Assembly (NCBI GenBank): GCA_021738345.1
Contig: JAIPCE010000021.1
Span: 1-32,310, forward strand
Reading direction: 5' to 3'
Length of the DNA stretch: 32,310 bases
Origin: Rhodoferax sp.
Lineage (GTDB): Bacteria > Pseudomonadota > Gammaproteobacteria > Burkholderiales > Burkholderiaceae_C
The first letter of the stretch is position 1. Each line of letters opens with the position of its first letter. A program made the position numbers and the translations under genes. Below are positions 3,387 through 23,458 of this stretch, piece by piece. Under the pieces are notes generated by a model, which saw only the letters and a list, made by a program, of their open reading frames with translations, made no database searches and was not told where the DNA came from.

Positions 3387-3477
3387 TAACTACTCACCTT
3401 CCAGCGAAACGACAGGATGTCAATTCCTCCCATCTGTCATCCCCGCGAAGGCTGGAATGACGACGGGTGAGTAGTTA
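3387..3477. repeat. 91-bp MITE-like or REP-like element with 12-bp terminal inverted repeats
   Basis: TAACTACTCACC at 3387-3398 is perfectly repeated in inverted orientation at 3466-3477. Inside is an imperfect palindrome of the widespread GTCATCCCCGCGAAGGC...GAATGAC type (about 3436-3462), a sequence often dispersed between genes in proteobacteria. No coding capacity. Whether it is one unit that moves together cannot be decided from one copy. Confidence 0.65.
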
Positions 3478-3586
3478 CATTTCTATTCGAGTGCGCCAAC
3501 GTTCAGCAAAAATGCGTAAGACGTTCAATCGATACCATTGACGCGGCCCAGAGCAGCAACAATCAACTTCAGAGATTTAAGGTCCA

Positions 3587-4666
3587 ATGGGCCCCATGAA
3601 CGACGCGTCACCACCTCTCCCACCGGACCCTCCCCACAAGCGTCGCGTGCGCTACGCTGGCACTCACCCACGCCAGTTTGAGCAAAAATACAAAGAGCTC
3701 GATCCCGAGCGGCATGCCAGCGAGGTTGACAAGGTCATGCAGCGTGGCCAGACACCTGCGGGCATGCACCGGTCCATCTGTGTCGATGAAATTCTGGCCA
3801 TTCTCAAGCCGCAGCCGGGTGAGACCGGCCTCGATGCCACGCTGGGCTTCGGTGGTCATACCCAGGTTCTGATGCCGCTGGTGCTGCCGGGTGGACGCAT
3901 GTTTGGCATCGATGTTGATCCGATTGAGCTGCCGCGTACCACGGCTAGACTGCGGGCGCTGGGGTTTGACGAAGAAGTGCTTATCGTGCAGCGCAGCAAC
4001 TTCAGCGAACTGGCCCTCTTGTTGCCGCCGTCTGGTGGAGGGTTTGACTTTATTCTGGCCGATCTGGGCGTGTCATCGATGCAGATCGACAACCCGGCGC
4101 GTGGTTTCAGCTTTCGTTCCGATGGACCTCTGGATTTGCGTCTGGACCCCGGGTGTGGTCAGTCGGCCAGCGAGCTTTTGCTGTCGGTCACACGCGCGCG
4201 GCTGCGTGAGCTGCTGACCGACAATTCCGACGAGCCCTTCGCCATCGCGTTGGCCGCTGCATTGCAGGGCCAATACCTGCAGACGACCTTGCAGCTCGCC
4301 GACCTGGTGCGCGCTACGATGGAAGGTACTTTGAAACGTTCCATGCCACAGGAAGAGCGTTTCGCAGAGACCAAAAAGGCATTGCAGCGCACGTTTCAGG
4401 CGCTGCGCATTGAAGTGAATGACGAGTTTGGCGTGTTGGATAAGCTGCTGGCGCAACTGCCCTCGTGTCTCAAGGTTGGGGGGAGGGTGGCCATTTTGAG
4501 CTTTCACTCCGGCGAAGACCGCCGCGTGAAGAAGGCCTTTCAAAGTGGCGAACGCGACGGCACCTACACCTCCGTAGCGCCTGACCCGATTCGCGCCTCC
4601 TATGCAGAGCAGCGCTCCAACCCGCGCTCCACTTCAGCCAAATTGCGCTGGGCGGTGCGGTCCTAA
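3587..4666 (+). CDS. RsmH/MraW-like rRNA methyltransferase paralogue outside the dcw cluster
   Basis: The 359-residue product has the hallmarks of RsmH, which N4-methylates C1402 of 16S rRNA using S-adenosylmethionine: DATLGFGGHTQVL (near 83-95), FGIDVDP (106-112), LADLGVSSMQIDNPARGFSF (near 155-175), DGPLDLRLD, ALRIEVNDEF and VAILSFHSGEDRRVKK. The last motif has Gly where RsmH normally has Leu (FHS-L-EDR). About 60 basic, proline-rich residues precede the usual start of the fold. The gene stands alone, without mraZ or ftsL neighbours, so it is probably a paralogue of the canonical cell-division-cluster gene (inference; the rest of the genome is not visible). Start: ATG 3587 with AAGG 4 nt upstream; ATG 3596 is an alternative. 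Confidence 0.85.
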   Translation: MGPMNDASPPLPPDPPHKRRVRYAGTHPRQFEQKYKELDPERHASEVDKVMQRGQTPAGMHRSICVDEILAILKPQPGETGLDATLGFGGHTQVLMPLVLPGGRMFGIDVDPIELPRTTARLRALGFDEEVLIVQRSNFSELALLLPPSGGGFDFILADLGVSSMQIDNPARGFSFRSDGPLDLRLDPGCGQSASELLLSVTRARLRELLTDNSDEPFAIALAAALQGQYLQTTLQLADLVRATMEGTLKRSMPQEERFAETKKALQRTFQALRIEVNDEFGVLDKLLAQLPSCLKVGGRVAILSFHSGEDRRVKKAFQSGERDGTYTSVAPDPIRASYAEQRSNPRSTSAKLRWAVRS

Positions 4667-4830: not shown

Positions 4831-6759
4831 ATGGGCATGCGGCCCGCGACTGAGGTTCCAACCTGGTTCTACATGAACGTATCTGCAAAGCAAAAAACAA
4901 TCCACGAGTCAGGGCGCGATTTGGCGGGTGATCACAATGAGGTTCAAGGACAAGAAGCTTTGTTGATTGCCGGTGCCTTGCAAAACGCGATTCTTAGCAG
5001 CGCCAATTTTTCGAGCATAGCCACCGACGCGAAAGGAGTCATTCAGATTTTTAACGTCGGCGCGGAGTGCATGTTGGGATATGCCGCTGCGGATGTCGTG
5101 AACAAAATCACGCCGGCAGATATTTCCGATCCCCAGGAGGTGATTGCCAGGGCGAAAGCACTGACAGACGAGCTTAACACCCCGATTGCGCCAGGCTTTG
5201 AGGCCTTGGTGTTCAAGGCATCGCGCGGCATCGAGGATATTTACGAGTTGACCTACATCCGCAAGGACGGGAGCCATTTCCCTGCGGTGGTCTCGGTCAC
5301 CGCGCTTCGAGATACCCAGAACAGCATCATTGGCTACCTGCTGATTGGCACCGACAATACCGCTCGCAAGAATGCCGAGGAGGCGCTTATCAAGGCCGGT
5401 GCACTGCAGGCGGCGATCTTCAATAGCGCCAATTTCTCGAGCATCGCTACCGACGCGAAGGGTGTCATTCAAATCTTTAACGTGGGTGCAGAGCGCATGT
5501 TGGGGTATGAGGCATCCGAGGTGATGGACAGAATTACACCGGCGGACTTGTCGGATCCCCATGAACTTATTGTGCGGGCCAAGGCGCTGAGTGTTGAACT
5601 CGAAACCGCCATCGCACCTGGCTTTGAGGCGCTGGTATTCAAGGCATCGCGTGGTATTGAAGATATTTACGAACTGACCTACATCCGCAAGAACGGTACC
5701 CGCGTTCCAGCAGTGGTTTCGGTGACCGCGTTGCGCGACGATCAAAATGTGATTATTGGCTATCTGCTGATCGGCACCGACAACACCGCACGCAAGCAGA
5801 TTGAGGCCGAACAAAAATTACTGGGTCAACGCCTGCGTGACCACCAGTTTTACACCCGCTCATTGTTTGAGGCGAATATTGACGCGCTCATGACCACGGA
5901 TCCGTCAGGAATCATCACCGATGTGAATAAACAAATGGAATCGCTCACCAGTTGCACGCGAGACGAACTGATAGGAGCGCCTTTCAAAAACTATTTCACG
6001 GATCCAGACCGTGCCGAAGATGCGATCATGTTGGTACTTACCAAGAAAAAGGTCACCAACTACGAGTTAACTGCGCGCGACCGCAACGGCAAGGAAACGG
6101 TGGTCTCCTACAACGCCACTACGTTTTATGACCGTGACCGCAAGCTGCAGGGGGTATTTGCCGCCGCGCGCGACATTACTGAACGTAAGCTTGCAGAAAA
6201 ACAAATTCTGGACTTGGCGCTGTATGACGCATTGACCCGATTGCCGAATCGGCGCCTATTAACCGAGAGGCTCGGTCAAATCAAGGAGGTAAGCAAACGC
6301 AGCGGCCGCCATAGCGCCCTGCTGTTCCTGGACTTGGACAACTTTAAGTCGCTCAATGATGTGTATGGGCATTTCATGGGTGACTTGTTGCTGGTGGAGG
6401 TGGCCCACCGATTGAGCGGGTGCGTTCGCACGGTCGACGTGGTCGCACGTTTCGGCGGCGACGAGTTCATTGTGGTTCTCAGTGAAATGGGTGCGAACAA
6501 GGCGGAAGCGACAGCACAGTCACGCTTGATCGCCGAGAAACTCAGGGCTGTGCTGGAAAAGCCCTATGTGCTGGCGTATCACCAAGGGGACCAGAGGGAA
6601 ATCTCGGTTCAGCATCGCTGCACTGCCAGCATCGGCGTGGTCGTTTTCTTCGACAACGAGAGCAACCAGGACGAGATTCTGAAGTGGGCTGATGCAGCGA
6701 TGTACAAGGCCAAGGAACAGGGCGGCAACAGAATTCAATTTCATGCTGCGGCGGTTTAA
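4831..6759 (+). CDS. Diguanylate cyclase with three PAS domains (PAS-PAS-PAS-GGDEF)
   Basis: 642 residues, no transmembrane segment seen, so a soluble sensor. Residues 43-184 and 185-326 are near-identical PAS units with a 142-residue period, each containing ANFSSIATDAKGVIQIFNVG and ending GYLLIGTDNTARK. A third, different PAS spans about 340-455 (FEANIDALMTTDPSGIITDV; ends AAARDITERK). The C-terminal GGDEF domain (about 460-640) has an intact GGDEF active site at 542-546, and RTVD at 533-536 is correctly placed for the inhibitory RxxD c-di-GMP site. It should make c-di-GMP from GTP and be product-inhibited. The signal sensed is unknown. The ATG at 4831 has GAGAAG 4 nt upstream; 4837 and 4873 are possible later starts. 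Confidence 0.92.
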   Translation: MGMRPATEVPTWFYMNVSAKQKTIHESGRDLAGDHNEVQGQEALLIAGALQNAILSSANFSSIATDAKGVIQIFNVGAECMLGYAAADVVNKITPADISDPQEVIARAKALTDELNTPIAPGFEALVFKASRGIEDIYELTYIRKDGSHFPAVVSVTALRDTQNSIIGYLLIGTDNTARKNAEEALIKAGALQAAIFNSANFSSIATDAKGVIQIFNVGAERMLGYEASEVMDRITPADLSDPHELIVRAKALSVELETAIAPGFEALVFKASRGIEDIYELTYIRKNGTRVPAVVSVTALRDDQNVIIGYLLIGTDNTARKQIEAEQKLLGQRLRDHQFYTRSLFEANIDALMTTDPSGIITDVNKQMESLTSCTRDELIGAPFKNYFTDPDRAEDAIMLVLTKKKVTNYELTARDRNGKETVVSYNATTFYDRDRKLQGVFAAARDITERKLAEKQILDLALYDALTRLPNRRLLTERLGQIKEVSKRSGRHSALLFLDLDNFKSLNDVYGHFMGDLLLVEVAHRLSGCVRTVDVVARFGGDEFIVVLSEMGANKAEATAQSRLIAEKLRAVLEKPYVLAYHQGDQREISVQHRCTASIGVVVFFDNESNQDEILKWADAAMYKAKEQGGNRIQFHAAAV

Positions 6760-6797
6760 GCCAGCTTGGCCCCTGCCCGGTTGAAGTTGACAAGAGA

Positions 6798-7517
6798 TCA
6801 GGAAAAGAACTCGACGCGTCCTTCGTCCAGGTCGTAGCGACCGGCCAGTACTTTGACTTTGCCCTTCTTGACCAAGTCCGCCACGATGCTGCTCTTGGTA
6901 GCAATCTTTTGGGCTGTGCGCATGGCGCTTTCACGCACGGCGTTGTCAACAAAGTCGCCAGGCTTGCCCGCGACCGCCTTGGCGGCAGGGACGATGGCAC
7001 CCACCATTGGCCCAATCGACGCGGGAAACTTGGTCTTCTTCCCGACCACTTCGCAGGCGGCAGCCACCGCCCCGCAGCGCTCATGCCCGAGCACGATGAT
7101 CAGCGGTACCCCCAACACGCCGGAGCCATATTCAATCGTGCCCATGGTGGCGGTGTCGACCATGTTGCCAGCGTTGCGCGCCACAAACAGTTCACCCAGT
7201 CCCAGGCCGCCAAACAACAACTCCGGGGGCACCCGGCTGTCGGCGCAGGACACGATGGTGGCCCAGGGCGCCTGGCTTTTGGCGACATGTTCCCGTTGGG
7301 AACCCAGTTGTACAGCGCAAAGATCGGGGCCTTTGACATATTTCTCGTTGCCCTCCTTGAGCTTGGCCAGTGCCTGGTCTGCCGTCAAGCTCGTGGTAGC
7401 GCCACCCGCAGCAAAGGCCGGACTAATCGACAGTGCAAGGCCGGCCAGGGCACCTGCAGAAGTCATGGACAAAAAACTGCGCCGGGAAGCCCGTCGCTCA
7501 TTACACACAAAACACAT
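6798..7517 (-). CDS. Tat-exported beta-carbonic anhydrase
   Basis: The 239-residue product interconverts CO2 and bicarbonate. Beta-class zinc-site residues are visible: C91-x-D93-x-R95 in SCADSRVPPE, and H145-x-x-C148 in LGHERCGAVAA. The N-terminus MCFVCNERRASRRSFLSMTS has a twin arginine (R12-R13) followed by SFL, then a hydrophobic stretch ending SPAFAAG, so the folded enzyme is probably exported to the periplasm by Tat (inference). AGGAG (complement of 7524-7528) lies 6 nt before the ATG at 7517, which favours this start over the one 30 nt upstream. It is convergent with the diguanylate cyclase gene; the 38-nt gap holds no obvious terminator. Confidence 0.93.
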   Translation of the reverse strand: MCFVCNERRASRRSFLSMTSAGALAGLALSISPAFAAGGATTSLTADQALAKLKEGNEKYVKGPDLCAVQLGSQREHVAKSQAPWATIVSCADSRVPPELLFGGLGLGELFVARNAGNMVDTATMGTIEYGSGVLGVPLIIVLGHERCGAVAAACEVVGKKTKFPASIGPMVGAIVPAAKAVAGKPGDFVDNAVRESAMRTAQKIATKSSIVADLVKKGKVKVLAGRYDLDEGRVEFFS

Positions 7518-7740
7518 GAAAATCTCCTGGGTTTGTTCGCTACTCAAAGTTGAACCGCTCGTATCCGCGCAGATGACGGACCCTTTGCGAGGCCAACAGA
7601 GCCGGCCCGCGACCTGACTATATCCAGTCTGATGGCCGTGTCAAAGGCCGCTACCAACTCAGATACCCAAAATTCATTCCTTGTCGTGCCACCCGAATCT
7701 GACCTGGTACCCCATGCATCTTCTCCATTTCGTTTTACCT

Positions 7741-7765
7741 ATAATTATGAAATTTGCATAATTAT
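7741..7765. promoter_or_regulatory. AT-rich inverted repeat upstream of the ATPase gene
   Basis: ATAATTATG (7741-7749) and CATAATTAT (7757-7765) form a perfect 9-bp inverted repeat with a 7-nt spacer, 26 nt before the ATG at 7792. Its position in an otherwise GC-richer spacer suggests an operator or promoter site; this is inference. No -10/-35 pair is assigned. Confidence 0.45.
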
Positions 7766-7791
7766 CAAATTACAATAAAAAAGCATAAATC

Positions 7792-8983
7792 ATGACCTTC
7801 CGTCGTACCGCCCTCGCTCTGGAAATGGCGCAGCAACTACTGCAGCCCTCTTTTCTTGACACAAGCTTACGCTCTGGTTTGTTTCTTTCGGGACCGCGGC
7901 GAGTGGGTAAGACCACGTTTCTCGCAACCGACCTGATTCCTGCTTTGGCAGAGAGGGGGTGCCATCGTCATCTACGTTGATCTGTGGAGTCAACCACAGG
8001 CAAATCCGGCAGATTTGGTTCACGGTGCCATTCAGAAGTCTTTAAACGCGCTGCAAATTCCTGGCTCCACAATTCTTCAGAAGTTGAAGCAGGTTTCCAG
8101 CTTTGAGGCTGGCGCTGCAGGCTTCAAATTTGGATTCAAGCTCGCAGACCTCGGTAAGGAAGGCGGAGTCAGCCTCGCCCATGCGTTCACCGAGCTCATT
8201 GACCAGGCCCAAACCAGCGTGGTGCTGATCGTTGACGAGGTGCAGCATGCTCTGGGAAGTGCTGAGGGCGGCAACATGCTCCACGCGCTGAAAGCAACAC
8301 GCGATGCGATCAACACGCGACCGGACACCCCGGGCTACTTTCTCTTTCTTGGAACGGGTTCGCACCGGGCTCGCGTGCAGGAACTTACCATCAAGGGCAA
8401 CCAGGCATTCAATGGTGCGGTAACGCACGAGTTTCCGGTGCTTGGCCGTGACTTTATTGAATACGTGCTGCACCGCGTCAAGCCACAATTGGGAAGTAAA
8501 ACCCCTTCTGCAGCTGTCACTGAAAAGGCGTTCAAAAAAATGGGAAGTCGCCCTGAAGAATTGATGAAAGCGCTCCATGTTTTACGCGAGTTGCCCCAGG
8601 GCGCTAACGCCGACGAGCATTTGCCCACCATCGCCCAGTCGCTGAGTGCTGCCGCAGCCGATGTAGAGATTCAAAAGATAGAAGCGCTTGGTCCACTTGC
8701 AGAAGCTGTTTTTTCACGTATTTGCAGTATTGGAGGTAACGTTAAAGGAGGGTTTACTGCAGACGCACTGAAAGAGTATTCGGTCAAAACCGGTCGCGAT
8801 GTCACAGCGCAGGAGGTTCAGGGCGTCATCGGTGTGATGACGGCTGCCAACTTGCTCATGCGAGTCAGTCACGGGCACTATGGCGTGACCGACAGCATTG
8901 TTGAAAAGGCGTGGGTCACGCGATTGCAGGCAGATACCCTCATGCGGTCTGACATGCTTCCGGACATCGGTGCGTCAGCCTGA
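7792..8983 (+). pseudogene. AAA-type ATPase gene with a +1 frameshift in a G run
   Basis: The first frame (7792-7980) starts MTFRRTALALEMAQQLLQPS, has a Walker A motif SGPRRVGKTTF and then hits a stop. Another frame carries on from about 7960 (AIVIYVDLWSQPQANPADLV), contains a Walker B-like VVLIVDEVQHAL and sensor-like FLFLGTGSHRAR, and ends at 8983. Removing one G from the five-G run at 7955-7959 joins the two into one product of about 396 residues. The joined protein resembles stand-alone ATP-binding proteins of the AAA/archaeal-ATPase kind, with a probable winged-helix C-terminus. Partner and role are unknown. Either a true frameshift or a homopolymer sequencing error would explain it; slippage-dependent expression is less likely. 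Confidence 0.75.
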
Positions 8984-12605: not shown

Positions 12606-12728
12606 ATGGACACTAGCGCAGGCTGTCCCCACCTGGTGATTATTGGCGGTGGTTTTGGCGGGCCGGAGGCCACCCAAGCGTTACGCCCGTCAGTGCCGCC
12701 AGAAACGGTACATTGGCTGTTTCGTTAA
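12606..12728 (+). pseudogene. N-terminal stump of a type II NADH dehydrogenase-like flavoprotein
   Basis: MDTSAGCPHLVIIGGGFGGP followed by EATQALR is the Rossmann FAD-binding start (GGGFGG) of the pyridine nucleotide-disulfide oxidoreductase family, as in Ndh. After 24 residues the frame enters an interspersed repeat (12682-12725) and stops at 12726-12728, leaving 40 residues instead of the roughly 430 expected. The rest of the gene is not found downstream, where the NhaA gene begins on the other strand. Confidence 0.75.
12682..12725 (+). repeat. Interspersed 44-bp repeat, copy 1
   Basis: This stretch (core GTGCCGCCAGAAACGGTACA) occurs again in inverted orientation at 15653-15696 with about five differences. 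Copy 1 sits exactly where the NADH dehydrogenase reading frame breaks down. Confidence 0.75.
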
Positions 12729-13975
12729 GGCTTGCCCTGTTCGTACAGTTCGTACTTGGGCTCAGCCACTAGGAACGGACGGGTTTGATCATCGGTGTTG
12801 GCGGATGGGGCGTTGGCCGTTTTGGGCAGCGCGCGCGACAAAATGACAAGGCCCGCGATGGCCGAAAAAATCGACCCCGCATACACGCCCAGGCGCACCG
12901 GTGTTGCCAGCGCCGGATCGGTAAAGGCCAATGCGCCAACAAAAAAACTCATGGTAAAGCCCACACCCGCAATACAACCCACACCAACGATTTGCCACCA
13001 ATCGCCTGGCCTGTTGGCTTTGATGAGCTTGACTCCCAGGTAGGTCATCAAGACGATACCCATGGGTTTGCCCAGTGCCAGGCCCAGTGCTGCACCCAAG
13101 GTAATGGGGTGCGTCAGGTAATGACCCGCACCGTCCAGGCTGATGCCTGCATTGGCAAAGGCAAACACCGGCATGATGCCAAACAAAACCCAGGGTCTGA
13201 AGCTATGTTCCGCCTCATGCAGGGGGCTGTGGCCGTCTTTGGCTTTGAGCGGCACGCACGCTGCCACGATCACTCCGCCAATGGTGGGGCTAATGCCTGA
13301 TTGGTACATCACCACCCATAGCACGATACCTATCAAAACGTACAGGCCCACGGCCGCCAACTTGAATCGGTTCATCACCACCAGCACGGCACTGACGCCT
13401 GCAGCCATCAGAAGGTAGTCCGGAAAAACCTGCTCGGTGTAGAAAAAAGCCACGATCAAAATGGCCCCCAGATCGTCAACCACCGCTACCGCCAGCAAAA
13501 ACGCCTTCAGTGCGACCGGCACCCGATTGCCCAACAAGGACAACACCCCCAATGCAAAGGCAATATCGGTGGCCGCCGGAATAGCCCAGCCCTTGCTAAA
13601 GCCTGCACTGCCGGCTAGTGCCAAAAACACCAGCGCTGGCATGGCCATGCCGCCCGCGGCGGCCAGCACGGGTAGCAGCGCGGCCTTTGGGTTGGATAGC
13701 TGCCCCTCCAGCATCTCACGTTTGAGTTCCAGCCCGACGAAGAAAAAAAACAAGGCCATCAACGCGTTCTTGATCCAGTACGCCACCTTCATCTCAATGC
13801 CGCCGCCCGTGGGCCCAATGCTGAAAGAGGTGGCAAGGAGCGATTGGTACGCAGAACCCCAGGGTGAATTCACTACGACCATTGCCAACGCGGAGACAAA
13901 AACCAACAGAGTGCCTGGCACTGCGTCTTGCGGCAAAAAACCCAGGACTTTTTGTTCGGATGCGGCCGCGGTCAT
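12725..13975 (-). CDS. nhaA: Na+/H+ antiporter NhaA
   Basis: 416 residues, highly hydrophobic, about 11-12 membrane segments. NhaA hallmarks: FFFFVGLELKREMLEG (near 76-91), PAATDIAFALGVLSLLGNRV with Asp137, and LLAVAVVDDLGAI with the Asp167-Asp168 pair that binds Na+/Li+ and protons in NhaA. It exchanges external protons for internal sodium and supports pH and salt homeostasis. The ATG at 13975 is 13 nt after the stop of the CaCA antiporter gene, so the two are probably one operon. A TTG at 13996 would add 7 residues that overlap the previous gene and is less likely. Length fits the family. Confidence 0.95.
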   Translation of the reverse strand: MTAAASEQKVLGFLPQDAVPGTLLVFVSALAMVVVNSPWGSAYQSLLATSFSIGPTGGGIEMKVAYWIKNALMALFFFFVGLELKREMLEGQLSNPKAALLPVLAAAGGMAMPALVFLALAGSAGFSKGWAIPAATDIAFALGVLSLLGNRVPVALKAFLLAVAVVDDLGAILIVAFFYTEQVFPDYLLMAAGVSAVLVVMNRFKLAAVGLYVLIGIVLWVVMYQSGISPTIGGVIVAACVPLKAKDGHSPLHEAEHSFRPWVLFGIMPVFAFANAGISLDGAGHYLTHPITLGAALGLALGKPMGIVLMTYLGVKLIKANRPGDWWQIVGVGCIAGVGFTMSFFVGALAFTDPALATPVRLGVYAGSIFSAIAGLVILSRALPKTANAPSANTDDQTRPFLVAEPKYELYEQGKP

Positions 13976-15500: not shown

Positions 15501-16185
15501 CTTGACTTGGCTCGGCTTTGTCTTTCTGGGGTTGGGCTGTCATTAGGCAATTTGCCCGATGAGGTCGGAACGTTGGTAGTGGACTTGATGCCTGACACTT
15601 AAAGCAGCATTCACCATGGTCGGCACAGACCCTTAGCGGCCATTTAGGGATGCGGAAACAACCAATGTACCGTTTCTGGCGGCACCGACGGGCGCATTGC
15701 GTCGTTACCCTTCGTTTATGTGGCAAGCCACACTGCACTCAGGGCGTCTCGCACTGCATCCCGCCAGCACCACCATAAACGGTACCTCAGCTATTTCCGC
15801 ACCCCTTACCAGAATTGCCAAGCGACCATCGGAAAGTCAAAAGAAGCCCTTCGATTTCGCCGAAAGCAGACTTTTCTTTTTGACACCCGAATCTCGGGAG
15901 CGGTCATTCAGCGGTGAAAATCATCTTTTCAAACTGGCGGTCGGCACTGCAGCGTAAGCGGAAATACAGAGGTCCAAATTGACCGGCAGATAGCCGACAT
16001 TGGTGCTAGGGCTAAGTCACCTAAGCCAAACTTGACATAAAACCCGAATGGATCCCGTGTCTTCTGACTCAACTTTGTGCTTTTTAGCTTGGAATCCCTG
16101 ACTACAACCACACACCGTACTTAAAACGTTTGAAACTCCAGCCGCAGCCAGGTTGAACTTGGCTAGGGATCAATTTTGCAAGTTC
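15501..16185. other. Spacer with an interspersed repeat; no supported gene
   Basis: Apart from the repeat at 15653-15696 and a small imperfect hairpin at 16146-16164 (AGCCAGGTTGAACTTGGCT), which follows the toxin gene and may serve as its transcript end, nothing recognisable is seen. Confidence 0.5.
15653..15696 (-). repeat. Interspersed 44-bp repeat, copy 2
   Basis: Inverted copy of the sequence at 12682-12725. Adjacent bases 15598-15652 look like part of a longer repeat unit, but only the 44-bp core is shared within this window. Confidence 0.75.
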
Positions 16186-16482
16186 TCACCGGACTAGCCT
16201 TGGGCTTTGACGTTGGCCCACGACGGCCAGCACCGTGACGACCTGCGCCTGGTCGTCCACCTCGTAGAGCACATGCTGGCCTGACAGGCTGATGCGGCGC
16301 ACGCCTTCCCCGTATTGAGGCGCGGCTTCGTAAAGTCTTGGAAACTCGGCCAAGCGCTCTGTGCTAAGCACGAGGCTTTTGCAAAGGTTCACAGCGTCCC
16401 ATAAAGATGCGTTTTCGGCCAGGTAGTCAAACAGTGCCTCGATGTCTTCAAGGGCCGAAGCACTCCAATCAACGCGATGCAC
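16186..16482 (-). CDS. ParE/RelE-superfamily toxin
   Basis: 98 residues beginning MHRVDWSASALEDIEALFDY LAENAS, the classic start of ParE-type toxins (W-x-x-A-x-x-DLEAI-x-x-YIA). Later RRISLSGQHVLYEVDDQAQ and VVTVLAVVGQRQSP match the strand-rich core and the C-terminal V-x-V-L-x-V-x-H/G-xRQ. ParE members poison gyrase, RelE members cut mRNA on the ribosome; which applies here cannot be told. The gene overlaps the upstream antitoxin gene by 14 nt, so translation is coupled. The frame is intact. Confidence 0.88.
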   Translation of the reverse strand: MHRVDWSASALEDIEALFDYLAENASLWDAVNLCKSLVLSTERLAEFPRLYEAAPQYGEGVRRISLSGQHVLYEVDDQAQVVTVLAVVGQRQSPRLVR

Positions 16483-16738: not shown

Positions 16739-16939
16739 GGGATTTCATCTCTTGTTGATCTGGTGGGTCGATGTGCTCATTTGGAACCTCTCGGGAAACA
16801 TGGCTCATGCACGTTAAGCCTTTTTTACCACTAATTCGACTGAAACGGAATATGCTTGAACAACGACCCACCATCATAGTTGGAGAAACGGGCAACGCCG
16901 CCCCGATACTCAACGACCGTCTGGCATCTGAAAACTAGT

Positions 16940-16978: not shown

Positions 16979-17009
16979 TTGATTTGACTCTCCAACTCAA
17001 AGGCTCGAA

Positions 17010-19151
17010 GTGATTACTTACGAAACCTGGCGTCAGATTCGGGTATTAAGCCGCCGCAAGCATATGACTTTTGCACAAATTGCGGTGGAAATGCACTTGA
17101 ACGTTCGCACGGTGGCGAAGTGGGCCATCTTGCCAAAGTACCAACCAAGGAAGAGCGCAGTGCGTGCAAGCGTGCTTGATCCATTCAAGGCGCAAGTAGT
17201 TGAGCTACTCGATGCGCATTTGCAGAGCACCCATCGCTTGACTGCTTTTGACATTTTTCGGCGATTGAACAAGAGCGGCTACTCCGGTGGCTACACACCC
17301 GTTAAGGAATTCATTAGGCAAATACGGCCAAAGAGTCCCCGTGGTCTTCACGAGCAACCCTTGAAAACTCAACTTGAAGCGAATCCGGTTGCGCCAAGCG
17401 AACCTGAAAAAAGTGATGCTGCAAGAGTGTATTCACTACGAATCGAGCACGTAATCAATCCAATACTGCCGACCGTTGTGGATGAGGTTTCGGAGCGGTC
17501 GGTCGTTTCATTTGCTGACACCTTGGCAGCGATTGTGAAGCTAGATGTTGAGCCTGACTGGGTACGTGAATTCACCGTGCTTGGGAGGCATACGCTCGAA
17601 CAACTCAGCGACCTCATTCAGAACGTTCTAGGGTGGGACGGAAGGCACCTCTATGAGTTTCGAATCGCCAATCGAGTGCATGCACACCTCATCCCTCTGG
17701 AAAGCGATGGTCTATTCGTTGATGCAATTGGACCGACCATTTCGTGTCATATTCCGATTAAGCGGCTTGGTCTAGCTATCGAAGACAGATTTGCTTACAC
17801 ACTTCACTCAAGCAACCGCCGCATGTTTCGTATCACGCTACTCGAAATTCGGCCGTCTGCAATCAACGAAGTTGTGCCATCACTACTCTCTTGCCAAGGG
17901 AAGAAACTTACCAAATGCGGCTGTGATGGCAGTACCTTAGATTCAGATTGCGAGATCCAAAAACCAACGGTCGTAGAACCTGATCCTCCCCGTGATCGAT
18001 TGCGAATTCGTTCCATCAGCAATACAGACGCATCTATATTGAAGGAGTGGCGCGCATCAAACAACAAGACACTTTGGCAAAAAGCGGTTTCCATTCTTGA
18101 AAACCGGAATCTCTCAATTGAAAATATTGCCTCAAAGATTGAGCAGACTGAAGGTAATGTCGATCGATGGATAAAGGCCTTCAACCGTTTTGGCCTCGAT
18201 GGGCTTAAGAAACCTTGCGCTCACGTTGGAGTTGAAAAATTGGGTGGCATCGCAGGCCGTACAGCCGTTCGCGATGTGAAAGCCAGACGGATATTTGAAA
18301 TTTTCCATGCCAAACCAAGTGCGTACGGAATTAATCGCAGCAGTTGGAGCCGCAAGGCGATCGCACTAGCCTATAGCCAGCAGCACAACGAGACTATCAG
18401 CGAGCGCTACGCTGGACATCTGCTGCGCCAGTTTGGTTACGCCATTCGCAAAGCGCGCAAAGTCCTAACAAGTCCCGATCCAAACTATCGGGAGAAAGTG
18501 GAGCTTTTGCTGAACACCCTTCAGTCGCTGAAGCCAGGCGAGCTCTTCTTTTTCATCGACGAACTTGGCCCCCTGCGAGTCAAGAAGTACGGTGGCCGTG
18601 CACTCGTGAAAAAAAATGAGACGCTCACCTATCCACAAGTGCAGGCACACCGAGGTGTGATCATGATGTCAGGAGCTCTCAGCGCAACCTCGAATCAAGT
18701 GACATGGATCTATGGTCGGGCAAAGGACACATTAGCTATGATCGACCTAATGGAGCTTCTCTATAACCAGTACCATTCAGCTTCCAAACTCTACGTCACG
18801 TGGGATGCCGCATCGTGGCATAAGTCCACAATGCTTGTGGATTGGCTCGACACATTCAACGCAACCACAAAGCTATTGAACGAGGGACCACTGATTGAAT
18901 TGGTCCCTCTTCCGACATCCTCACAGTTTCTGGATGTAATCGAAGCAGTTTTTAGCGGGATGAAAACTGCCGTTGTTCACCACTCTGACTATCGGGACGT
19001 GCCAGAAATGAAGAAGGCGATTTCAAGACATTTCACAGAGAGAAACGAGCACTTCCGTGAAAATCCACGGCGAGCAGGAAAGAAGATTTGGGAGATCGAC
19101 TTTTTTGATGACAATGAGAACATTCGCTCTGGGAACTATCGAGAATGGTAG
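17010..19151 (+). CDS. Composite transposase: IS21-type HTH + pRiA4b ORF-3-like domain + IS630-like DDE domain
   Basis: 713 residues from a GTG start with AAAGG 6 nt upstream. Residues 1-107 (MTFAQIAVEMHLNVRTVAKW ... SGYSGGYTPVKEFIRQIRP) look like the DNA-binding region of IS21 IstA transposases. Residues about 145-305 (VLGRHTLEQLSDLIQNVLGW DGRHLYEFRI) resemble the plasmid pRiA4b ORF-3-like domain. A second HTH region (about 365-410, SIENIASKIEQTEGNVDRWI) precedes an IS630/Tc1-like DDE catalytic domain: Asp517 in FFFIDELG, Asp599 in TWDAASWH, Glu645 in VIEAVFSG. The last two are 45 residues apart, more than the 34 usual for IS630. All three acids are present. The stop overlaps the next gene (ATGGTAG). 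Base composition is about 48% GC, lower than the flanks. The fusion is unusual; function as a transposase is inferred. Confidence 0.8.
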   Translation: MITYETWRQIRVLSRRKHMTFAQIAVEMHLNVRTVAKWAILPKYQPRKSAVRASVLDPFKAQVVELLDAHLQSTHRLTAFDIFRRLNKSGYSGGYTPVKEFIRQIRPKSPRGLHEQPLKTQLEANPVAPSEPEKSDAARVYSLRIEHVINPILPTVVDEVSERSVVSFADTLAAIVKLDVEPDWVREFTVLGRHTLEQLSDLIQNVLGWDGRHLYEFRIANRVHAHLIPLESDGLFVDAIGPTISCHIPIKRLGLAIEDRFAYTLHSSNRRMFRITLLEIRPSAINEVVPSLLSCQGKKLTKCGCDGSTLDSDCEIQKPTVVEPDPPRDRLRIRSISNTDASILKEWRASNNKTLWQKAVSILENRNLSIENIASKIEQTEGNVDRWIKAFNRFGLDGLKKPCAHVGVEKLGGIAGRTAVRDVKARRIFEIFHAKPSAYGINRSSWSRKAIALAYSQQHNETISERYAGHLLRQFGYAIRKARKVLTSPDPNYREKVELLLNTLQSLKPGELFFFIDELGPLRVKKYGGRALVKKNETLTYPQVQAHRGVIMMSGALSATSNQVTWIYGRAKDTLAMIDLMELLYNQYHSASKLYVTWDAASWHKSTMLVDWLDTFNATTKLLNEGPLIELVPLPTSSQFLDVIEAVFSGMKTAVVHHSDYRDVPEMKKAISRHFTERNEHFRENPRRAGKKIWEIDFFDDNENIRSGNYREW

Positions 19152-21466
19152 CCGGTCCTTTAGTCGATTCATTCGTGATCGATGCGACTTTTTTACTGGC
19201 TGATGCCGAAAAGGCCTTCCTTGGATCTGTTGCGATTGCCGATGAATGTGGGCGAAACACTTCTGTAATTTACGGTGCTGTTCGAAGCTTGCTGCAACTT
19301 CGAAAGGCACTCGGCATTGTCAGCGGAATCGTGGTCGTGGGTGATGATGCCAATAGGGTATCGTCTCCGCAAAGTATTGACATGTTTTGCGACCTTTTGC
19401 GTGGCATAGGTTCAAAGGTCTTGCATGAACCGACAGTTGGCGTCGGTTTACTCTTACGGTCGCTGCATCTGAAAGGTAAGGCAACATGGATTGTCACTGG
19501 GAATAAGTCCCTAATGCAACTTGTCGAGTCGGGGTGCGGCGTTATCCTAACGCTCGAGGGGTCGACCCCAGAGGTAATCACCGAGAACACACTCACATCG
19601 CGCTATCACATTACCCGCGTGCAGGTGCCGAGTTTTATTGCGCTTACTGAAGTCATCGGTGGGCCGTCACTTACGATAAAACAAGCCGTGCGACTGCTCG
19701 AAGTGCACGGAACCCTTGGATCTGCGCTCGAGGGTCCCGGAACCGATTCGCTTTCACCAAAGATTAGGCGCTACATCAATACGAACAAGGCAGCATTACT
19801 CGCACGACTACAGGAGTTGACTATTGCAGATCACAAGGGTTCGACGCTAGCCACTACCTTGGGGCCATTCGTCAGAGACGATGATGAGAGTCGCCGTTTG
19901 CTCAGGAAGTGGGGAATGCCGTCACTAGGGCGTCTTCTTGGTGTGCCTCCAAATATTGAGTTGGTCAGCTCTGCCAGAATTCAAACGCAATCGTACTTTG
20001 CGGTTGTCGACAAAGCTGGTCTACGTAATATGGAAACTGTGGTTGCGAACGCAGTAGTTTGTGCTGTCGACACAGAGTCCACGGGCAAGGATCCAAGAAG
20101 TGCAACTCTACTTGGTGTTGCAATCGCCGTTAGTGAAGGAGGTGCATTTTACGTTCCATTGACTCAGTCTGACCTTCGGGATGTCTCGTCGGCCTCAGTA
20201 GTTGGGATTCTTCGCAATCTTCTAACGGGAACGATTAAAGTCGTCGGGCACAATCTCAAATATGACTATGTGCTCCTTCGACGGCATGGCATCCAAATTC
20301 AAGAGCCGTACTTTGACACGATGTTGGCAGCGTACGAGTGCTTCGGCGACTGGGACTTTTTCAATCTCAGTGCAGTTGCAAAAAGGTTGCTCGGACGGGA
20401 TGTTAAGAGATACAGGGACATCGTTGACGAAGGCCAGACTCTTCAGGATATTCCGTTTGCCGATGTAGTCGAACATGGATGCGCAGACGCTTCTACAACG
20501 CTGGCTTTGTACAGTCACCTGCGCGCTGACCTAATAGATAAGAACATCTACAGCCAGTTCGTGGATACCGTGATGCCACTTATACGCATTTTGGGCGACA
20601 AAGAGATCGACGGCGTGACACTGGACATCCATGCCATAAAGGAAAAGAGAGAGGCGCTGTCAAACAAGTCAGTGCTATCAGAAGCAGCTATTTTTGCCCA
20701 AGTTGGTAAAAAATTCGACTTGGAGTCGATGCAGGACGTCGCCTCAGTTTTGCGCGGAATCGAAGGAGTTCGTGACCGGATTGGAACACAGCCGCTACGG
20801 CAGGGGCAACTCGAACAGCTCGCTCAGCTTAGTCCCATTGCCAGTGCAGTTGTGCAACACAGGCGATTGATGAAACAGGTCACATTGCTTGACGCGATTT
20901 GCAAAGTCGAAATGAACGCTAAAGTATTTCCAATCTTTAGTCAAATGAAAACAAGTCACGGCCGAATTTCATCGACTGACCCTAATCTCTTTGAAGTTGA
21001 GGGAGCCTTGCATGCTGAGGCAGTGCTTGACATCGACATCCGAAAGCTATTAACAGATGAGAGTCGTTCATTGGATATTTTGCAGCAGTTGACGCAAGAT
21101 AATAAGCTTGAACGTGATCGAAAAGGCGGAAACAATGAGTTTATGAACACCGATGGCGATCTCCCATTGCTCACTGGTCTGAGCCACACGAGTTTGCTCG
21201 TGTCGATTGCGGTTGGGGACTCAAATGCAACTCTATGCAAAAGATTTCTGTTGGATGCACGTAAGGTAAGTGATATCCGCGAAGTAGTCACTAGTCGGTA
21301 CCCGAGTCTGTTCAGATGGATCGACGAATTCTCCCGCAAGACTCTGTCTTCAGGATTTGCATTGTCTGGAGAACGTCGACGATATTTTGACGGACTCCGA
21401 AGTTCGGACATTGACAAGCGTGTCCGCTCAATGCGAAGTGCCATGCGATGGTTGATTAGTTTGTAA
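19145..21466 (+). CDS. DNA polymerase I-like protein: intact-looking 3'-5' exonuclease, degenerate 5'-nuclease, truncated polymerase
   Basis: 773 residues, ATG at 19145 overlapping the transposase stop by 7 nt. The order of parts follows PolA. Residues 1-250 resemble the 5'-nuclease, but ADD, GDKD and GDSSDN ligands are replaced (TVGVGLL, TGNKSLMQLV, GGPSLTIKQA). Residues about 300-465 form a DEDD exonuclease: Asp309 and Glu311 in VDTESTG, Asp374 in GHNLKYD, Asp448 in HGCAD, with His444 where PolA has Tyr. Then a polymerase thumb part (KTSHGRISSTDPNLFEVEG, compare GRLSSTDPNL) and a late-palm-like part (ERRRYFDGLRSSDIDKRVRS). No DYSQIELR-like motif A is convincing, and the protein ends before the VHDE motif C, so polymerase activity is unlikely. 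Role in the element is unknown; end processing or replication-coupled repair are guesses. Confidence 0.78.
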   Translation: MVAGPLVDSFVIDATFLLADAEKAFLGSVAIADECGRNTSVIYGAVRSLLQLRKALGIVSGIVVVGDDANRVSSPQSIDMFCDLLRGIGSKVLHEPTVGVGLLLRSLHLKGKATWIVTGNKSLMQLVESGCGVILTLEGSTPEVITENTLTSRYHITRVQVPSFIALTEVIGGPSLTIKQAVRLLEVHGTLGSALEGPGTDSLSPKIRRYINTNKAALLARLQELTIADHKGSTLATTLGPFVRDDDESRRLLRKWGMPSLGRLLGVPPNIELVSSARIQTQSYFAVVDKAGLRNMETVVANAVVCAVDTESTGKDPRSATLLGVAIAVSEGGAFYVPLTQSDLRDVSSASVVGILRNLLTGTIKVVGHNLKYDYVLLRRHGIQIQEPYFDTMLAAYECFGDWDFFNLSAVAKRLLGRDVKRYRDIVDEGQTLQDIPFADVVEHGCADASTTLALYSHLRADLIDKNIYSQFVDTVMPLIRILGDKEIDGVTLDIHAIKEKREALSNKSVLSEAAIFAQVGKKFDLESMQDVASVLRGIEGVRDRIGTQPLRQGQLEQLAQLSPIASAVVQHRRLMKQVTLLDAICKVEMNAKVFPIFSQMKTSHGRISSTDPNLFEVEGALHAEAVLDIDIRKLLTDESRSLDILQQLTQDNKLERDRKGGNNEFMNTDGDLPLLTGLSHTSLLVSIAVGDSNATLCKRFLLDARKVSDIREVVTSRYPSLFRWIDEFSRKTLSSGFALSGERRRYFDGLRSSDIDKRVRSMRSAMRWLISL

Positions 21467-21552
21467 TACGGTTTCGATATATGCTAAGAATAAGGTGTTG
21501 TGACTGCTTGTGATTGGAATCGAAGGTCTCGAACTAAAACCCCTTAAATGAT

Positions 21553-23064
21553 ATGCTTAGTCGCAGAGTCCAGGCTCAAATATTGAAACTCCATAGTAGC
21601 GGAGAAAGTTTTCATAGTATTGCGCGGCTGCTGACAGTAACGCGAAGTACAGTCAGGAAATTAGTCAGACGAGGCTCTATCAAGGTTCAAAGATTAGCGC
21701 CCGCCAATAAGATACGTGATTGGCATCGCGAAGTAATGTCCATACTTGCTGATCGGAAATTGACTAGGTCAGAAGTGTTCAGCGAGCTTGGTGTCAAAGG
21801 ATTTAATGTTCCGTATTCAACTTTTTCCCGATATTGTAGAAATAATAAAATAGATTTTTCTAGTAACACTAATTCTAGAAATTCAAAGATAATTTCGCTG
21901 CAAGATTTGTTTCACGGTAAAAACGTTCCTCAATACTTTTCCAATGAATTACTTTCCTCGGAAGAAACTAAAATTCTGCTCGGAAAAATTAAAAAAGGCA
22001 GCCTTAGAGATCGAAAAAGAGCTTGTACGATATTGGCACGTGAGTATGGACTTCCAAATCGCACCATTGCATCAGCTCTTAATTCTTCACCAAGTACAAC
22101 TCGTGAATATTATATTTCATATAAAAATCTTGGTATTTCAACTCTATTCACCTCGAATCGAGCCAAAAATAATGATTCCACTAAGGATGCAAATCGAACT
22201 AACAGAATTATCGAACTACTCCATCAAAGGCCAAGCGGTTTTGGAATCAATCGTACAAGTTGGAGTCAGATAAGCATTGGCGCAGCATATGAAACGCAGT
22301 TCGATGAAAAGATTTCTCGTTCCACTATTGCGCGCTCGCTTAAAGAACTACGATTCACATGGATGAAGGCGAAGAAGATACTGACGTCTCCTGATCCGAA
22401 CTACCGTGAAAAAGTAGAACTCCTTTTATCAAAACTTCAAACACTTGCCCACGATGAGCAGTTCTTTTTTCTTGATGAACTTGGTCCCTTATTAGTGAAG
22501 AAGCGCGGTGGGAGGACCTATGTTCTGAACGGCACTGTACCCAACACCCCACGCCGACAAATCTCCAAAGGATCGGTAACACTCTTGGGTGCATTGAGCG
22601 CCACAACAAATCAAGTAACCTGGATATTTGGCGAGTCGAAGGACAGTGGTTTCATCATTGATTTGATAGAGATTCTCTTTAATCAATATTATGACAAGAA
22701 AGCAATTTTCATCACCTGGGACGCTGTTTCTTGGCATAAGTCAGTCGAGCTAATGACGTGGTTGGATAGTTTTAATGACACCACTAAAAAACTTGGTAAA
22801 GGGCCAGTCATAGAAATAGTACCGTTGCCTACAAGCTCTCAGTTTTTGAATGTAATCGAGGGCGTGTTTTCAGGAATGATGCGGGCCGTTGTGCATAATT
22901 CTGACTACCAATCTGAACAAGAAATGAAAATTGCGATGTCAAGACATCTCTGTGAACGCAATTCGTTCTTTGTTACTAATCCTAAACGCGTAGGCAAGAG
23001 AATTTGGGAGACAGATTTCTTTAGAGATAATGACAATCTCAGGTTTGGAAATTACTTTGGATGA
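21553..23064 (+). CDS. Second transposase, IS21-type HTH + IS630-like DDE, without the pRiA4b-like domain
   Basis: 503 residues. The N-terminus (MLSRRVQAQILKLHSSGESF HSIARLLTVTRSTVRKLVRR) is an IS21/IS630-style HTH; a second HTH-like part lies near 150-200. The DDE domain is related to that of the 17010-19151 gene over about 250 residues, at around half identity by eye, sharing TSPDPNYREKVELLL, GALSAT-NQVTWI and LPTSSQFL. Acidic residues: Asp308 (FFFLDELG), Asp390 (TWDAVSWH), Glu436 (VIEGVFSG), again 45 apart. The gene is AT-rich (about 40% GC), clearly different from both its neighbour and the chromosome. No good ribosome-binding site precedes the ATG at 21553. It follows the PolA-like gene after 86 nt, same strand. 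Confidence 0.8.
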   Translation: MLSRRVQAQILKLHSSGESFHSIARLLTVTRSTVRKLVRRGSIKVQRLAPANKIRDWHREVMSILADRKLTRSEVFSELGVKGFNVPYSTFSRYCRNNKIDFSSNTNSRNSKIISLQDLFHGKNVPQYFSNELLSSEETKILLGKIKKGSLRDRKRACTILAREYGLPNRTIASALNSSPSTTREYYISYKNLGISTLFTSNRAKNNDSTKDANRTNRIIELLHQRPSGFGINRTSWSQISIGAAYETQFDEKISRSTIARSLKELRFTWMKAKKILTSPDPNYREKVELLLSKLQTLAHDEQFFFLDELGPLLVKKRGGRTYVLNGTVPNTPRRQISKGSVTLLGALSATTNQVTWIFGESKDSGFIIDLIEILFNQYYDKKAIFITWDAVSWHKSVELMTWLDSFNDTTKKLGKGPVIEIVPLPTSSQFLNVIEGVFSGMMRAVVHNSDYQSEQEMKIAMSRHLCERNSFFVTNPKRVGKRIWETDFFRDNDNLRFGNYFG

Positions 23065-23098: not shown

Positions 23099-23298
23099 AA
23101 TGGCGTGTCTCAGATGCGTCTTAGGTTATGTCCAGCGTTGAATTCCGCATTATGCTGCTGACAGCGCTGCATCGGACCACCGGAAAGCGGTCTGTGGTGG
23201 GCGTCCGCAATGGGTCTACAGGAGCCGGTCAAGTGAAAACGGAAAATATTTTGGTCGACTCCAGAAGACCCAAAGCGGGTGCTGATATTCTCCAACTA

Positions 23299-23335
23299 GT
23301 CGCTCCAGACCGGCCGTTGGCCGCCTTGGAGCGAC
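23299..23335. repeat. Nested hairpin, 9-bp outer stem
   Basis: GTCGCTCCA (23299-23307) pairs with TGGAGCGAC (23327-23335), and inside it CGGCC-GTT-GGCCG (23311-23323) forms a second stem. Probably an intergenic repeat unit; a similar CGGCCAATGGCCG palindrome occurs near 23399-23411. Confidence 0.55.
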
Positions 23336-23458
23336 CGTCAACTTTGAGGCAACTGTTTAGTCAATTAGTGAGCCCTCAATTGACCATCTGCAGTCTCCGG
23401 CCAATGGCCGTTTACGAACAGTTCGATTCTGTAGACTGCGCGACCACGAGAGCAGCGT

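Follow-up and report, generated by a model that had tools for sequence, protein, structure and literature searches.

The DNA analysed in this work (the window) is a contig of 32,310 nucleotides (nt) from a Rhodoferax sp. assembly (GCA_021738345.1, JAIPCE010000021.1), which is contig C340 of a 4.87-Mb genome in 346 contigs with completeness 90.8 and contamination 3.1. Three genes on its forward strand encode two IS630-type transposases, Tnp1 and Tnp2, and, between them, a derivative of DNA polymerase I (PolA), here termed PolX. Tnp1 (713 residues; 17010..19151, +) consists of an IS21-like helix-turn-helix (HTH) head, a PRiA4_ORF3 domain and an IS630-type DDE domain. PolX (773 residues; 19145..21466, +) keeps an exonuclease site, whereas its 5'-nuclease and polymerase sites are dead as judged by their residues. 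Tnp2 (503 residues; 21553..23064, +) combines an HTH head with an IS630-type DDE domain. The first two genes share the 7-nt stretch ATGGTAG (19145..19151, +), in which the PolX start codon lies inside the Trp and stop codons of Tnp1. The 1-kb windows within 17-23.5 kb have a G+C content of 0.39-0.51, versus 0.52-0.61 in the flanking windows. An earlier note on this DNA had described three same-strand open reading frames of these lengths, an overlap of 7 nt between the first two and a G+C content below that of the flanks, and the re-reading of the sequence gave the same picture. A scan of the window against Rfam produced no match.

Both transposases pass the NCBIfam cut-off for IS630 (100 bits), with 125.5 bits for Tnp1 and 152.4 bits for Tnp2, and they share 57% identity across 287 residues of the DDE region, which bears out the proposal of the same note that they are IS630-like proteins with related DDE domains. 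In Pfam, Tnp1 matches PRiA4_ORF3 (E = 1e-9; residues 179-298) and DDE_3 (E = 1.4e-8), and its residues 13-111 give an IS21-type match that lies under the IS21 cut-off of NCBIfam; Tnp2 matches HTH_23 and DDE_3. The catalytic triads are D517, D599 and E645 in Tnp1 and D308, D390 and E436 in Tnp2. A set of 250 related transposases was compiled from the two window proteins, 12 proteins from other loci and 236 database entries (two of these being the window's own). The D-D-E triad is present in 238 of the 250, including both window proteins; nine of the remaining 12 are gapped at the last one or two triad columns, P0177 has K, P0220 has H and G, and the protein encoded at 6426-8099 of locus L009 is without the second D. 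The latter, the middle transposase of its locus, lacks four residues including this catalytic Asp, and the loss is either real or an assembly fault. The spacing between the second D and the E is 45 residues (DD45E) in 231 of the 238 triad-bearing proteins. This value falls outside the DD34-41E/D spacing given for Tc1/mariner in PMC8533490, the comparison being confined to Tc1/mariner, and the term 'DD45E' was not found in the open-licence PubMed Central (PMC) literature.

By their N-terminal parts, the transposases were divided into classes A (PRiA4; includes Tnp1), B (HTH; includes Tnp2), C and D (one sequence). On a DDE tree of 240 rows the class labels are clustered (38 changes versus 121 in shuffles) and class C makes up one side of a branch, and the heads are therefore mostly old; classes A and B each require several changes, so head swaps also occur.

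PolX is homologous to PolA over nearly its full length and ends before polymerase motif C. In Pfam it matches the PolA 3'-5' exonuclease model (E = 1.5e-18) and positions 4-133 of the 381 positions of the DNA_pol_A model. Three parts can be distinguished: a 5'-nuclease (FEN)-like part (residues 1-265; 19145..19939, +), of whose acids only the first Asp (D13) is generally kept; a DEDD 3'-5' exonuclease domain (residues 286-463; 20000..20533, +) with D309, E311, D374, H444 and D448; and a polymerase-like part (residues 466-773; 20540..21463, +) that lacks motif C and the Asp of motif A. Relatives of PolX form one group separate from cellular PolA, and residues were counted in 107 of these proteins. 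Among the exonuclease residues, D355 and E357 are present in all 107, D424 in 106 and D501 in 100, and Y497 is replaced by H in 99. The polymerase residues D705 and D882 (motifs A and C) are absent in all 107, and D638, near the lost polymerase Asp, is D in 69. Among the 5'-nuclease acids, D13 is kept in 104 proteins and D63 in one, and D116, D138 and D188 are D in 27, 22 and 20. Judged by these residues, PolX cannot be a working polymerase, and of its active sites the exonuclease site alone is kept. PolX defines a protein family that the sources call merely 'DNA polymerase I' or 'DNA polymerase-1'.

In one pair of PolX copies, purifying selection was detected in all three parts of the protein. 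Conservation of the dead polymerase and 5'-nuclease-like parts, the selection acting on them and the Klenow shape retained by the predicted PolX model would suit a different kind of transposon, one whose PolX does not trim ends but serves as a polymerase-dead decoy or regulator, holding nicked or gapped DNA against the host Pol I or limiting transposition. The structure comparison hardly covered the first 280 residues, the 5'-nuclease homology of which rests on a separate comparison. We consider such a decoy unlikely: among the catalytic sites that of the exonuclease is the best conserved, and the exonuclease part has the lowest ratio of nonsynonymous to synonymous substitution rates (dN/dS) in the pair.

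A scan of genome contigs gave 376 relatives, the best 80 of which were retained; 15 of these 80 loci (L003-L016 and L040) were accepted as members of the PolX family by identity and coverage, and 36 of the other 65 encode PolA with motifs A and C. The arrangement of the window, Tnp1-PolX-Tnp2 on one strand, was found in L008 with broken genes. Tnp1-PolX is accompanied by a convergent, split Tnp2 in L007 and stands on a cut contig in L004. Three transposases precede PolX in L009, and a single transposase precedes it in L010, L011, L012, L014 and L016 (the L010 and L012 units lie near contig ends, and the L011 transposase carries a stop). In L013, PolX stands between a transposase remnant and a class C transposase, and in L006 it is accompanied by a convergent class B gene. 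The constant unit is therefore transposase-PolX, with one, two or three transposases per locus in varied order and with different DNA-binding heads. The conserved trio suspected in the earlier note was recovered in part: the pair recurs in unrelated loci, but the strict order transposase-PolA-transposase does not hold.

At 11 of the 13 junctions read (the window, L004, L008-L014, L016, L248, L006 and L007), PolX begins, with ATG or GTG, inside the end of the transposase gene, giving a 7-nt overlap of consensus RTGGTRR that is formed by the codons for the C-terminal Trp and the stop of the transposase. The other two junctions are those of L006, where the transposase is a remnant, and of L007, where PolX starts a few bases later. 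Such an overlap would couple the translation of PolX to that of Tnp1. The transposase alignment, run against the 15 carrier genomes at E 1e-30, gave 19 matches in 12 of them, all 19 on PolX contigs; since the search alignment contained sequences from some of these genomes, the informative part is that no copy was found elsewhere. In the remaining three genomes (G293, G401 and G410), the start of the contig truncates PolX. A search of the window's genome with Tnp2 matched the Tnp1 and Tnp2 genes alone. Among 120 PolX entries listed from the protein database, 24 equal a listed Tnp1 relative in the size of the longest contig (offset control: mean 1.1, maximum 6) and six likewise equal a listed Tnp2 relative (mean 1.0, maximum 3). 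This recurrence of the pairing in other loci is more than chance would give.

These data also bear on the possibility that a truncated PolA gene came by chance to lie between two unconnected insertion sequences of one gene each. Each transposase alone scores as IS630, a class C gene precedes PolX in L016 and follows it in L013, and a transposase profile gave, at E 1e-60, partial matches in two other genomes of the 399 sampled from the order, one at the end of a 5.1-kb contig and one on a 13.8-kb contig, neither contig having a PolX match. Nevertheless, this explanation is very improbable given the shared start-stop overlap, the confinement of the subfamily to PolX contigs in the carrier genomes, the position of PolX on one side of a fully supported branch and the purifying selection on it. 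Both outcomes that the earlier note had named as fatal to its proposal are thus contradicted: the genes do occur together elsewhere, and, in the carrier genomes, the transposases do not behave as insertion sequences that landed independently beside PolX.

The family is sparsely distributed. In the genus, PolX was found in one of 103 genomes, the window's own; in the sample of 399 genomes of the order, three matched, namely the window's own, G293 and G333, and the G333 frame of 928 residues is probably an ordinary PolA. In the class of an acidobacterial carrier, two of 299 genomes matched, that carrier among them. The carriers are labelled Betaproteobacteria, Acidobacteria, Deltaproteobacteria, Desulfobacteraceae, Nitrospira, Opitutales, Phycisphaerae and Bacteroidetes; they are metagenome-assembled genomes, the binning of which can err. 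An identical 109-nt stretch inside PolX, at contig ends, is shared by L003 (147-255; Betaproteobacteria) and L004 (3462-3570; Bacteroidetes) from one sample, and these probably represent a single element divided between two bins. Broken copies are frequent (L007, L008, L011, L013, L015, L040 and L178/L181). No PolX match was found on plasmids at E 1e-30, and the best 80 loci from viral contigs were classed as ordinary polymerases solely on their identity of 21-28%.

Evidence of acquisition was obtained for L011. Its island is flanked by a DUF1015-like gene and an amidohydrolase gene (both named by eye), which are 5.8 kb apart in the carrier. In five of nine relatives (G830, G828, G823, G813 and G817) these genes are 0 to about 0.85 kb apart with no transposase or PolX matches, so the L011 unit lies in acquired DNA; in the other four the amidohydrolase was not found on the stretch examined. 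The carrier has two copies of the 3' end of the amidohydrolase gene (12714-12801 and 13658-13745, about 91% identity), one on each side of a PIN-domain gene, which marks a second insertion beside the first. The comparison with empty sites proposed in the earlier note gave an unoccupied site for L011, but the window's own empty site was not found by flank searches in same-genus genomes: the right flank is present in one of them at 88%, with the contig ending 172 nt beyond the match, and the left-flank searches returned only pieces near the unit.

The ends of the element were sought in the window and in other loci. A candidate TA-bounded inverted repeat, TAGTTGGAGAA, has its left arm at 16877..16887 (+) and its right arm at 23288..23298 (-), and encloses about 6.4 kb. 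By shuffling the pair is unusual: with three flank sizes, 0, 3 and 24 of 3000 shuffled sequences contained a TA+9 pair of this kind, the pattern having been chosen after the pair was seen. The right arm lies in a copy (23204..23373) of a repeat dispersed in the window's genome, and another copy, on contig 133, aligns across the arm at 114 of 174 positions; for this reason the pair is not claimed as element ends. The right end probably lies before the 23204-23373 repeat. Similar DNA in two same-genus genomes stops near 16779, which bounds the left end of the unit. A shorter motif, AGTTGGAGA, occurs three times (shuffle mean 0.15; three copies in none of 100 shuffles); its third copy, just upstream of Tnp1 (16989..16997, -), is a possible protein-binding site. 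In other loci, a 14-nt inverted pair in L012 was distrusted because its motif recurs beside the pair. Direct repeats stand on either side of the unit in L011 (90 nt, 98.9%) and L014 (103 nt, 77.7%), and both were rejected as simple target duplications since they belong to repeats dispersed in those genomes. A 397-nt repeat around L006 looks like part of an integrase-type gene (type assigned by eye). The element ends and target-site duplications that the earlier note had proposed to look for were not established.

With slightly better than even confidence, we interpret the transposase-PolX unit as the protein-coding core of a mobile element with few copies per genome. The element would belong to the IS630/Tc1/mariner superfamily, and its transposases would work with PolX as a dedicated nuclease. 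Both the mobility of the unit and the task of the exonuclease are deduced from sequence comparisons. According to this scheme, the transposases would bind and cut the ends of the element, each class perhaps serving a single end. The overlapping start would keep synthesis of PolX in step with that of the upstream transposase, and PolX would dock on the broken ends via its inactive polymerase and 5'-nuclease-like parts acting as DNA-binding scaffolds, and would trim 3' ends. Trimming could remove the short 3' overhangs left on the donor by Tc1/mariner-type cutting; alternatively, PolX may mature the element 3' ends before joining, as proposed for some Dada exonucleases. The earlier note had suggested end processing or repair: since only the exonuclease site is kept, end trimming fits, whereas repair synthesis does not fit a dead polymerase. 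In a more specific version, which is tentative and somewhat unlikely, two to three paralogous DD45E transposases would form a mixed transpososome with one head per unlike end and pass the cleaved ends to PolX as an end-recognition clamp and 3'-trimming exonuclease. Unlike ends, each with its own head, would explain the missing inverted repeats, and the machinery would be of a new class, with an almost complete DNA polymerase converted to a nuclease for transposition.

Several observations weigh against the interpretation as a mobile element with a dedicated nuclease. Carrier genomes generally contain a single locus, which is not what a busy insertion sequence shows. The candidate ends in the window are doubtful, the right arm being within a dispersed repeat, and no TA-bounded inverted repeat of at least 8 exact bases, or 12 with one mismatch, was found in 11 other loci over 1.5 kb on the left and 2 kb on the right as contigs allowed (looser pairs are present in L009 and L012). 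The unoccupied L011 site concerns an island that also holds other genes and provides no exact ends. In L009 the second catalytic Asp is missing from one of three transposases, D501 is lost in seven of the 107 PolX proteins, and related transposases occur without PolX. The ISY100 transposase requires no partner protein (PMC2170065). Finally, some carriers adjoin defence-type genes.

The last point leads to the main alternative reading, which is as unlikely as the decoy: a defence or anti-plasmid system built from domesticated transposases, in which the DDE proteins would recognise and cut incoming DNA and PolX would degrade it from the 3' ends. The mostly single locus per genome and the lack of clear ends agree with it, as do the results of a neighbour survey (10 genes of three loci plus the window) based on PADLOC and Pfam. 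L009 lies among genes matching RT-Protease_XI, AbiEi/AbiEii and PDC-M02A, together with a resolvase; L012 is near PDC-S01 and SocA_Panacea matches, L014 adjoins a retron-type exonuclease effector, and a ParE-type gene adjoins the window's unit. However, defence and toxin-antitoxin genes also gather in mobile islands, and the number and order of the transposases vary. PADLOC returned no match for Tnp1, and weak, partial matches for Tnp2 (1.4e-4) and PolX (RTasPolA, 9.2e-7; DEDDh, 2.6e-6).

No description of a transposase-PolX pairing was found in the open-licence PMC literature, preprints being outside this scope, and the statement of the earlier note that no described element is known to pair two IS630-type transposases with a PolA derivative stands within that literature. 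The nearest described systems are TV-Pol elements and Dada. In CRISPR adaptation, DnaQ-like enzymes trim the 3' ends of prespacers; there too a DEDD exonuclease matures 3' ends for an integrase, but the integrase is different and the exonuclease has no PolA body.

Like IS630 elements (e.g., ISY100; PMC2170065), the unit encodes a DDE transposase with an N-terminal HTH head. Known IS630 members have a single transposase gene, the product of which suffices, whereas here one to three paralogues are coupled to PolX; the DD45E spacing and the lack of proven inverted repeats in the transposase-PolX loci are further differences. Given the IS630-type catalytic core and unproven ends, the unit is treated as a variant of the IS630 kind. 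Eukaryotic Dada transposons also combine a DDE transposase with a DEDD-type 3'-5' exonuclease; this DEDDy domain resides inside the transposase of some members and was proposed to process cleaved 3' ends (PMC3706591), whereas PolX is a separate, PolA-derived protein with mostly His in place of Tyr. TV-Pol elements resemble the unit in being bacterial mobile elements that encode a member of the family A polymerase superfamily, in some cases close to transposases of IS630 or IS605 type. TV-Pols are described as polymerases never linked to nuclease domains (PMC2579912), the opposite of PolX, in which the nuclease persists and the polymerase part is dead. Casposons (PMC9939771) are likewise prokaryotic mobile elements with a DNA polymerase relative, but they encode a Cas1-type integrase and a PolB-type polymerase instead of DDE transposases and a dead PolA. 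In Pfam, the window's three proteins match families other than Cas1 and PolB, no search aimed at Cas1 or PolB having been made around the loci. IS630/Tc1/mariner elements are textbook single-protein systems, and the PolX branch would show cut-and-paste transposition recruiting end processing, in parallel with Dada transposons. This raises a direct question, namely whether a 3' exonuclease alters excision footprints or end maturation in this superfamily.

Some features of the surroundings are worth recording. A ParE-type toxin gene (16186-16482, -) adjoins the window's unit. Repeats at 15635-15806, left of this gene, and at 23204-23373, directly after Tnp2, are dispersed in the window's genome and in same-genus genomes. 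Units lie between dispersed repeats in L011 and L014 also, which may reflect a target preference. A serine resolvase gene (3477-4037) is located upstream of the three-transposase operon of L009, and the set in this locus looks like a unit transposon. The repeat at 8288-8377 of L011, which has no Rfam match at the gathering threshold, contains a conserved core of about 50 nt and has a sharp right edge in many genomes of the L011 family.

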